From assembly GCA_038744685.1 (NCBI GenBank), contig JBCDMB010000024.1, positions 1 through 55,640 on the forward strand: DNA of 55,640 nucleotides, written 5' to 3'. A model generated the notes under the pieces. It had not been told where the DNA came from. It worked only from the letters and a program-made list of their open reading frames with translations, and did not search any database. The position numbers and the translations under genes were made by a program. The stretch is from Verrucomicrobiota bacterium (GTDB lineage Bacteria > Verrucomicrobiota > Verrucomicrobiia > Opitutales > Puniceicoccaceae). Position 1 is the stretch's first letter. Each line of letters starts with the position of its first letter. Positions 12,849 through 18,886 of the stretch are shown here, piece by piece.

Positions 12849-13223
12849 ATGGCAATTTCCGACTTCCTTCCCGTGCTGATTCAGATCTGCCTGGCGATCC
12901 TCATCGGCGGGCTGATCATCGTTGCAAGCATGGTAATCGGCCAAAAAGGGCGGAAGAATAAGATCAAGGACACCCCATACGAGTGCGGTGTTCCTCCGGC
13001 CGGAAAGTCGCGGACGCGATTTGCAGTTAAATTCTACGTCACCGCTATGCTCTTCATTCTTTTCGATGTCGAGGTAGTCTTCCTCATCCCGTGGGTCCTT
13101 ACCTACCGGGAATTCTTAGCGGCTGGTATCCCAATTGTCGCTCCGATGGCAGTTTTCTTTGGTATTTTCATCATTGGTCTCATCTACGAATTCAAGAAAG
13201 GCGCGATTGAGTGGGAGAAGTAG
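12849..13223 (+). CDS. nuoA: NADH-quinone oxidoreductase subunit A
   Basis: Small membrane subunit of respiratory complex I, 124 aa. Three transmembrane helices (about 7-29, 63-83, 92-113). The conserved loop DTPYECGVPP has the cysteine typical of NuoA/ND3, followed by RFAVKFYVTAMLFILFDVEVVFLIPW with the conserved acidic residues of helix 2. Length is normal. No other nuo gene is in this window: the neighbours are a divergent DUF3108 gene and, 35 bases downstream, the diadenylate cyclase fusion. The gene therefore either acts with a nuo cluster elsewhere or belongs to a split one. The start ATG directly follows a TTTACC run; no strong ribosome site is evident. Confidence 0.93.
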   Translation: MAISDFLPVLIQICLAILIGGLIIVASMVIGQKGRKNKIKDTPYECGVPPAGKSRTRFAVKFYVTAMLFILFDVEVVFLIPWVLTYREFLAAGIPIVAPMAVFFGIFIIGLIYEFKKGAIEWEK

Positions 13224-13258: not shown

Positions 13259-14614
13259 ATGCAAATCGAGCGCTTCATCACTGCCTCCCGCATCATCGAG
13301 ATCGAGAGCTCTGATCTCTCAGGTGCACTGAGCGAACTACTTGACGTTTGCGAAATCGGAGAACTCGAAACTTATGGAAAGAGGAAGCTCCTGAAGGAAC
13401 TTCTGGATCGGGAGCATACGATCACTACAAACCTCGGGAATGGAGTAGCCCTTCCCCATGTCAGAGTCCCGATGAAGCGCCGTTATATCATGGCGATGGG
13501 ACGGTGCCCACAGGGCCTTACTCACGAAGGGTCTGACGACTATAAAGACGTGAAGCTCGTGCTGCTTCTCCTCGCCTCCGAGAACGCGCGTAACTACCTC
13601 AATGCGTTGGCAGCAATCGCAGGAATTTTCCAAGACAAGACCGTAGTTGAGCGCCTGATGGAGCAGGCAGCACTCCTTGACTTCAAGACCGAGGTCAAGC
13701 GCACGCTCAGCGGAGATCCCCAAAAGCCACGCAGCAAGCCTACTCGAATCAATCGCCTTGTTCTCAAGGAGTCCGAAAAGATTGCTACCAGTGCCCGATG
13801 CAAATCTGTGTTGATTTTCGGCGATACTTTTGCAGGAGGTGTCGAGCTCTCCCAGAGCTTCAAGAATCTAAGGACGGTTCTTGTCACTCAGGCAGGTTCA
13901 GAAACCGTAGAGGAAACCAACGCCGTTAGCGATTATCTTCCCATCCGATCGTTTTCAAATCATCGGATGTCTCAGCTGCGTTCAGCCATTCTCATTGGTC
14001 TGACCAGGGGAATCTTCCAACCTGATGAGCTCATTTGTTGCGTAGGCGGACTACCTCAAAGCAACCGTTTTGACACCATCCTTGTCGTCGATGTGGCTCG
14101 TGAGTTCAGAACCCTGTTTTCTGAACGGTCCCACACCTTACCTCCCTCACTTCGACCAGAAGTGATGGAGCGGGTTCTGGCTATCGCAATGGAGTTAGGT
14201 CTGGAGGGCCGAGAAGGAAAGAAAGTGGGCTGCCTTTTTGTTCTCGGCGACACCAACAAGGTCCTCGAGTTCTCGAAGCCCCTCGTTCTCAATCCATTCT
14301 ACGGATACCGCGAAGAGGATCGGAACGTTCTGAATCCGTTCATGGACGAAACTGTCAAAGAGTTTTCTTCGATCGATGGAGCCTTTATCATACGGGGGAA
14401 CGGTGTAATCGAGGCGGCAGGCACTCTCCTTCGCACTTCCGACTCGCCAGACCTCCCTGGAGGACTGGGTGCGCGCCATGCCGCCGCCGCTGCGGTCACA
14501 AAAAGCACTCGAAGCCTCGCGATTGCTGTTTCTGAGAGCACTGGCCAGGTGACGCTTTTCTCCAACGGAGATATGATCTCTCTCCTAGGGTATCCGGTTG
14601 GCGGTAATTTTTGA
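13259..14614 (+). CDS. PTS EIIA-like domain + PK_C-like domain + diadenylate cyclase (DacZ-type) fusion
   Basis: 451-aa cytosolic protein with three parts. Residues 1-150 resemble a fructose/Ntr-type EIIA domain, with the phospho-acceptor histidine in GVALPHVRV (H67). Residues about 165-285 look like the pyruvate-kinase C-terminal-like fold (KSVLIFGDTFAGGVELSQSF; TILVVDVAREF). Residues about 295-451 match a diadenylate cyclase (DAC) domain: GREGKKVGCLFVLGD, LNPFYGY, the DGA motif (D373-A375), and GARHAAAA where DisA/CdaA have GTRHR, then LAIAVSESTGQVTLF. The middle plus C-terminal parts resemble archaeal DacZ. The expected reaction is 2 ATP to c-di-AMP, a regulator of potassium and osmotic balance. 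The third residue of the RHR motif is alanine (A408). Followed 50 bases later by rpmG. Confidence 0.82.
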   Translation: MQIERFITASRIIEIESSDLSGALSELLDVCEIGELETYGKRKLLKELLDREHTITTNLGNGVALPHVRVPMKRRYIMAMGRCPQGLTHEGSDDYKDVKLVLLLLASENARNYLNALAAIAGIFQDKTVVERLMEQAALLDFKTEVKRTLSGDPQKPRSKPTRINRLVLKESEKIATSARCKSVLIFGDTFAGGVELSQSFKNLRTVLVTQAGSETVEETNAVSDYLPIRSFSNHRMSQLRSAILIGLTRGIFQPDELICCVGGLPQSNRFDTILVVDVAREFRTLFSERSHTLPPSLRPEVMERVLAIAMELGLEGREGKKVGCLFVLGDTNKVLEFSKPLVLNPFYGYREEDRNVLNPFMDETVKEFSSIDGAFIIRGNGVIEAAGTLLRTSDSPDLPGGLGARHAAAAAVTKSTRSLAIAVSESTGQVTLFSNGDMISLLGYPVGGNF

Positions 14615-18318: not shown

Positions 18319-18441
18319 TCAATCATCGCCAAAAGTGCGGTTCCACAAAAACTCTCCTAATAAAAGAGTCGCACCCGTGCCGATCGCGCCAAGTGCCATC
18401 AAAGGACCGAGCCAGCCGTTCACCACCATTGTCCATTCCAT
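18319..18441 (-). CDS. Possible small single-span membrane protein
   Basis: A 40-residue frame (MEWTMVVNGWLGPLMALGAI and then GTGATLLLGEFLWNRTFGDD) would give one glycine-rich transmembrane helix with an acidic tail. The frame stays open upstream to an ATG at 18573, which would make 84 aa but overlap the HPt gene in antisense. No clear ribosome site precedes either start. It fills the 254-base gap between the lycopene-cyclase-domain gene and the HPt gene. No family recognised; it may be a chance frame. Confidence 0.3.
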   Translation of the reverse strand: MEWTMVVNGWLGPLMALGAIGTGATLLLGEFLWNRTFGDD

Positions 18442-18493
18442 AGGCCGAAAATCCAGCTTGTCGGAGAGTTCCGCAAGACTTAATTTCCCCTCG

Positions 18494-18886
18494 ATGCCTA
18501 TCTCTGCCGAGCTATTTTCCCCCAGGATACTTCGAACTTTCGCCGAGGAGATCTGTGCGGACGATGCCGACATTTTTGTCGAGCTTTTGAGTGACTGTCA
18601 AAATGACCTTCGCGCTCAGTGTGAAGTTCTCCTCGAGGCCCGGGAAGCCGAAAATTGGCGCGACTTCAATCGCGCTGCCCACTCAATAAAATCAGCTGCT
18701 AGAACCTTCGGTAGCCCGTTATTGAAGGAATTGGCCTTCACTCTTGAAGCCCACTCTGAAGGAGAGATGAGCGAGAACGATCTACAGGTATTGGACCGCC
18801 ACACCGAAAGGCTTCAACGTGCTTCTCAAGAATTTAAAGATGCTTTGGAACGGATCGCAGCTGATGCAGATACGTTTTTGGCCTAG
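18494..18886 (+). CDS. Histidine phosphotransfer (HPt) domain protein
   Basis: 130-aa protein made of one HPt domain. The helical core has FNRAAHSIKSAARTFGSPLL, the typical phospho-acceptor motif (His at residue 67 of this start, in AAHSIKSAA), with upstream helix ADIFVELLSDCQNDLRAQCE. Such proteins relay phosphoryl groups between receiver domains in multistep phosphorelays. The ATG at 18494 is preferred; the frame is open from 18335, but that extension is of low complexity and faces a possible antisense frame. It converges on the degenerate histidine kinase, stop to stop about 20 bases apart. No receiver-domain gene is in the window. Confidence 0.78.
   Translation: MPISAELFSPRILRTFAEEICADDADIFVELLSDCQNDLRAQCEVLLEAREAENWRDFNRAAHSIKSAARTFGSPLLKELAFTLEAHSEGEMSENDLQVLDRHTERLQRASQEFKDALERIAADADTFLA

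Follow-up and report, generated by a model that had tools for sequence, protein, structure and literature searches.

EIIA-DacZ_P-DAC proteins of Opitutales: predicted c-di-AMP synthases with a putative phosphotransfer input domain

Introduction

Potassium transport in Firmicutes is under c-di-AMP control, and to our knowledge the signals that control the c-di-AMP synthases themselves are largely an open question. The archaeal synthase DacZ, also named CdaZ (DacY), consists of a PK_C-like N-terminal domain followed by a diadenylate cyclase (DAC) domain (PMC6741144). Braun et al. 2019 place proteins of Opitutae in a class named 'DacD'; the scheme sorts the cyclases by the domains attached to them and is cited there to Corrigan & Grundling 2013, and the members listed come from Lacunisphaera, Coraliomargarita, Puniceicoccaceae and other Opitutae (PMC6741144). 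The literature was searched for a cyclase linked to EIIA and none was found; likewise no function, activity, PTS link or genome inventory was found for DacD in the literature searched. In Proteobacteria the EIIA-Ntr protein (PtsN) of the PTS-Ntr (EI-Ntr, NPr, EIIA-Ntr) binds KdpD in its unphosphorylated form and controls K+ uptake (PMC9239096).

The gene considered here lies in a 55,640-nucleotide stretch of DNA from a Verrucomicrobiota bacterium of the order Opitutales (contig JBCDMB010000024.1 of assembly GCA_038744685.1), referred to below as the window. Its product, P0001, shares with archaeal DacZ the PK_C-like and DAC domains, as well as the non-Arg third residue of the RHx motif that is present in the haloarchaeal proteins checked. 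However, DacZ is devoid of EIIA, and P0001 stays far below the equivalog cut-off of the haloarchaeal DacZ model NF041371 (NCBIfam; 129 bits at residues 196–440 with a cut-off of 430). The DAC fold and the DGA/RH residues are common to P0001, CdaA and DisA, but P0001 has neither a transmembrane nor a DNA-binding domain, contains RHA for RHR and carries PK_C-like and EIIA domains instead. The N-terminal part of P0001 resembles PtsN in the EIIA fold and the active-site His, the PTS of the window's genome resembles PTS-Ntr in being regulatory, with no membrane transporter detected, and by analogy a link to K+ control of the kind seen in Proteobacteria may be suggested (PMC9239096). In contrast to the components of PTS-Ntr, the EIIA of P0001 is fused to a cyclase, and the EI of the same genome lacks the GAF domain. 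In addition, the second His of E. coli PtsN, which adjoins the active site, is replaced by Tyr113 in P0001, and the cut-off of the PtsN equivalog TIGR01419 is not reached (NCBIfam; 48.5 bits with a cut-off of 138.7).

Domain organization of P0001

Three domains of P0001 are recognized by Pfam above their respective gathering cut-offs: PTS_EIIA_2 (PF00359) at residues 38–136 (67.8 bits, cut-off 27), DacZ_P (PF21755, described as a probable sensor domain) at residues 165–285 (47.8 bits, cut-off 27.4) and DAC (PF02457) at residues 314–438 (82.2 bits, cut-off 27). The fructose/PtsN-type EIIA models of NCBIfam cover residues from about 36 to 136, all under their equivalog cut-offs. Sequence matches in the PDB are PtsN/mannitol EIIA at residues 42–138 and CdaA enzymes at residues 372–440.

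The AlphaFold model of P0001 was obtained with 52 input sequences (mean pLDDT 80.9, pTM 0.70), and the entire 451-residue model was used for structural comparison. Residues 1–153 match E. coli EIIA-Ntr (1a6j; Z 18.4, rmsd 2.3, 145 aligned), residues 153–283 match pyruvate kinase (5ws9; Z 14.4, rmsd 2.4, 119 aligned) and residues 296–444 match AMP-bound CdaA (8c4n; Z 15.8, 131 aligned). The three sets of solved structures matched are unrelated to one another. Foldseek agrees with these matches for the EIIA and DAC parts. The coordinates are collected in Table 1.

Table 1. Cyclase gene of the window, its domains and motifs, and the gene upstream of it.
Feature	Position in the window	Strand	Evidence
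nuoA (NADH-quinone oxidoreductase chain 3, complex I)	12849..13223	+	PF00507, 110 bits
EIIA-DacZ_P-DAC diadenylate cyclase gene (P0001)	13259..14614	+	ATG start, one ORF, 451 aa
EIIA domain, PtsN / EIIA-Ntr type, residues 1-153	13259..13717	+	PF00359 match; fold match 1a6j; aligns with PtsN structures
His67 codon, candidate phospho-acceptor	13457..13459	+	aligned with PtsN active-site His
DacZ_P / pyruvate-kinase-C-like domain, residues about 153-285	13715..14113	+	PF21755; fold match 5ws9
DAC catalytic domain, residues 295-446	14141..14596	+	PF02457; fold match 8c4n
DGA motif, residues 373-375	14375..14383	+	D373, G374 invariant in alignments A1, A2
RHA motif (RHR in CdaA/DisA), residues 406-408	14474..14482	+	R406, H407 invariant; third position varies

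The preliminary description of this locus had proposed an N-terminal EIIA-like domain with H67, a PK_C-like domain in the middle and a DAC domain in the C-terminal third of the protein. The domain search and the structure prediction that it suggested both recover all three domains, with evident similarity to DAC as well as to EIIA proteins; H67 aligns with the active-site His of PtsN, and the motifs are found where they had been placed (LNPF at residues 344–347, GARH at 404–407, DGA and H67 as in Table 1). The existence of conserved full-length relatives together with the structural matches rules out that the reading frame at 13259–14614 is a product of chance or an annotation artefact.

Distribution of the domain layout

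A match to P0001, nearly always full length, is present in 47 of the 52 genomes of the same order, and full-length relatives with 36–85% identity occur in at least 40 genomes of the order. At least 80 loci were found in contigs of named genomes (records of Opitutia, Opitutales, Puniceicoccaceae and Opitutaceae), all of them full length, and the isolate Cephaloticoccus capnophilus CV41 is among those with the full-length layout. A survey of 388 genomes of the phylum revealed full-length matches in almost all members of the order that were sampled and, outside the class, in six genomes (G357, G054, G286, G419, G083 and G199); in the remainder of the class the matches, among those listed, are of EIIA length only. 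At the four such outside loci scanned (L136, L137, L138 and L140) EIIA and DAC are confirmed by Pfam, and the middle domain exceeds the DacZ_P cut-off at two of the four.

The survey of Verrucomicrobiota, which had been proposed at the outset, shows that EIIA-DacZ_P-DAC is the standard and near-universal layout of the predicted c-di-AMP synthases of Opitutales and that it recurs sparsely elsewhere in the phylum. The preliminary description, which named no characterised enzyme of this layout, needs correction here: the layout is not unique, and it probably corresponds to the listed 'DacD' class, the two being equated through the list of Opitutae members. The members listed are Opitutales, whose DAC proteins in our data almost all have the EIIA-DacZ_P-DAC layout. 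Since the Opitutae proteins are listed as 'DacD' and Pfam already contains DacZ_P, it is very probable that this architecture is on record already. A DacZ-type cyclase and a regulatory PTS are each known; what the present analysis adds is the inventory given below, in which the sole EIIA is located on the sole DAC.

Some members of the family deviate from this layout. In reduced genomes of about 0.8–0.9 Mb the cyclase is present in an EIIA-less version (L045, L047 and L048), and at L046 (1.0 Mb genome) the EIIA domain is degenerate and has no His. A second, divergent DacZ_P-DAC cyclase of about 300 aa, without EIIA and with an RHL motif, was observed at L049 (genome G049) and L145 (genome G211); in G211 it coexists with the EIIA-fused enzyme. 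The near-complete genomes of family f20 (G022, G334 and G417) have no match to the cyclase, and the first of them is also devoid of the PgpH phosphodiesterase, suggesting that c-di-AMP signalling has been lost.

PTS and c-di-AMP genes

The genome of the window is a draft (97.8% complete, 56 contigs). Absences reported here for this and other genomes are results of single-family searches, and in drafts (the relatives are mostly MAGs) they can correspond to assembly gaps. P0001 is the only diadenylate cyclase detected in the genome. The search for HPr and EI genes, also suggested in advance, returned a single EI, in which the three PEP-utiliser domains are all present, one HPr containing IHARPA and, in addition, one HPr kinase. 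The sole EIIA_2 match is the EIIA of the cyclase; PTS_EIIC (PF02378), EIIA-man and EIIA-Glc were searched for in this genome and gave no match. The presence of EI and HPr with no PF02378 EIIC detected fits a regulatory, PTS-Ntr-like PTS.

This arrangement is shared by many relatives. The only EIIA_2 match sits on the DAC protein in 27 of the 52 genomes, 20 of which possess EI and HPr (one of these 20, G032, has Tyr67), and PTS_EIIC (PF02378) was not found in 46 of the 52. As a separate observation, a 1004-residue open frame at G003:C13:26197-27411 matches EIIA-man, HPr and EI-N, as in a DhaM-like multiphosphoryl protein. A PgpH-type phosphodiesterase (7TMR-HDED/7TM/HD) is encoded in the genome of the window as well as in 44 of the 47 genomes with DAC, compared with one of the five without it (Fisher p 0.0006, a value that ignores shared ancestry). 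This co-occurrence supports a real turnover of c-di-AMP.

Proposed mechanism

From the domain anatomy, the conservation and the gene inventory described above we infer a scheme of catalysis, phosphotransfer and allosteric control. A PEP-EI-HPr relay probably ends on His67 of the DacZ-type c-di-AMP synthase and sets the activity of the enzyme via its own EIIA. The phosphate would be transferred from PEP to EI, further to HPr and finally to His67, and the DAC domain would, judging by homology, convert two ATP molecules to c-di-AMP, which would then be degraded by the PgpH-type 7TM-HD phosphodiesterase of the same genome. Without any transport of sugar, such a cyclase would read the PEP/pyruvate state and possibly also that of nitrogen or of HPr kinase. 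The PK_C-like domain in the middle would probably provide a second input by binding a metabolite, or else couple EIIA to the DAC dimer. As for the direction of control, we lean slightly to the variant in which unphosphorylated EIIA restrains the cyclase and phosphorylation releases it, because several reduced genomes without PTS keep DAC and have dropped or degraded EIIA.

Support for the three domains, together with the presence of EI, HPr and HPr kinase in the genome, makes a PTS-sensing cyclase plausible. By analogy, potassium is a likely output of the cyclase, because EIIA-Ntr steers K+ uptake in Proteobacteria and c-di-AMP steers K+ transport in Firmicutes. We see an even chance that the complete picture holds for Opitutales, namely that a transporter-free PEP-EI-HPr chain has a c-di-AMP synthase as its sole EIIA end-point, so that phosphorylation of one histidine would set the level of c-di-AMP and the two potassium regulators, EIIA-Ntr and c-di-AMP, would be united in one polypeptide. 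A candidate input (the PTS phosphorelay with the PEP/pyruvate and possibly the nitrogen state) is covalently attached here to a predicted c-di-AMP synthase, and few alternatives were detected in the genome of the window, where DAC, EI, HPr and EIIA_2 were each found once. The fusion suggests direct wiring of the EIIA-Ntr-type and c-di-AMP types of K+ control in Verrucomicrobiota. If this is true, the energy or carbon status may feed directly into c-di-AMP and hence into potassium control.

Conservation of His67 and the role of the EIIA domain

If His67 is the target of EI and HPr, it is expected to decay once these proteins are lost. Residue 67 is His in 47 and Tyr in five of the 52 sequences of alignment A2 (about 45–85% identity). 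Four genomes (G027, G044, G045 and G036) have no EI or HPr, and the EIIA or its His is also missing there. However, a strict correlation between His67 and the PTS genes was sought among the relatives and only a partial one was found. G009 and G031 retain His67, with EI and HPr not detected, and in G040 the His is lost although EI and HPr are present. Family f4 (G006, G032 and G047; loci L023, L017 and L016), the sister of the window's family in the tree, has Tyr67 and nevertheless retains EI, HPr and HPr kinase, being a natural variant with His67 lost. The association of intact His67 with the PTS genes gives a Fisher p of 0.009 for the loss of both EI and HPr and 0.08 for EI alone, both uncorrected for phylogeny. 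This pattern of co-loss gives partial support to the phosphorelay. That the relay is obligatory is disfavoured by Tyr67 in a family with EI and HPr and by reduced genomes that retain His67 when both are missing; His67 is evidently not essential everywhere, f4 and G040 having lost it with EI and HPr present. Tyr113 in the place of the second PtsN His likewise speaks against the relay.

The same exceptions are what one would expect if the enzyme were an active c-di-AMP synthase whose EIIA is a phosphorylation-independent scaffold or docking module (e.g. for a K+ transporter or sensor) and not a phospho-sensor of the cyclase: the PTS is intact in the sister family with Tyr67 and in G040, and G009 and G031 retain EIIA without EI or HPr. 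EIIA-Ntr of Proteobacteria does act through protein-protein contacts, e.g. PtsN-KdpD (PMC9239096). However, a mere scaffold does not readily account for the preservation of His67 in nine tenths of the aligned sequences, nor for the fact that many genomes retaining EI and HPr have no EIIA_2 match besides the EIIA of DAC. We consider a docking role of this kind possible but rather unlikely, and we prefer the phosphorelay to His67.

The signal might also run in the reverse direction, the cyclase or its occupancy by ATP or c-di-AMP controlling the phospho-state of EIIA and hence the EI/HPr/HPr-kinase branch, with cyclase activity not being the main output. HPr kinase does co-occur with EI and HPr, so HPr may have other outputs, but among the EIIA families and PTS_EIIC searched for, the genome of the window gives no further match that could take such a signal, and this direction seems very improbable to us.

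Catalytic motif

Residues D373, G374, R406 and H407 are invariant across the relatives (alignments A1 and A2). In the 52-sequence set, position 408, the third of the RHR motif, is occupied by Ala or Ser; the wider set of relatives has A, S, T, L, V, G, M, N or I there, and once R. Two haloarchaeal DacZ proteins encoded by Haladaptatus plasmids have the sequence GTRHHAA, i.e. His in the third position of RHx; one of the two was scanned with the NCBI DacZ equivalog and passes it (441.8 with a cut-off of 430). DacZ of H. volcanii is a demonstrated active enzyme (PMC6741144). In M. tuberculosis DacA the activity is abolished by the RHR to AAA replacement, in which all three residues are changed together (PMC3328451).

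The preliminary description had asked for the activity of P0001 to be tested on account of Ala in the third position of RHR. Since the third Arg is missing nearly clade-wide and in the two haloarchaeal DacZ proteins, RHA gives no ground for doubting the activity, catalysis being predicted by homology; an inactive cyclase deduced from RHA was dropped. That the DAC domain is degenerate and retained as a sensor of c-di-AMP or ATP, as the missing third Arg and the M. tuberculosis DacA mutant might suggest, is very improbable, given that this mutant was altered in three residues and not in the third alone, that the four residues named above are invariant, that an active enzyme is known among the haloarchaeal DacZ proteins, of which those checked are RHH, and that P0001 is the only DAC found in a genome where PgpH co-occurs.

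Gene neighbourhood

The nuoA gene ends 35 nt upstream of the cyclase gene on the same strand and is probably co-transcribed with it. The same gene stands immediately upstream of the cyclase at 99 of the 123 loci with enough upstream sequence, the two locus sets overlapping in some genomes. RNase PH and a succinyl-CoA ligase pair are encoded downstream. An Rfam scan of the window gave SRP RNA and one tRNA only; close to the cyclase gene neither a c-di-AMP riboswitch nor any further RNA family was detected, and a promoter scan was at background level. The window also encodes a protein with an Hpt (histidine phosphotransfer) domain (18335-18886, + strand), roughly 4 kb downstream from the cyclase gene.
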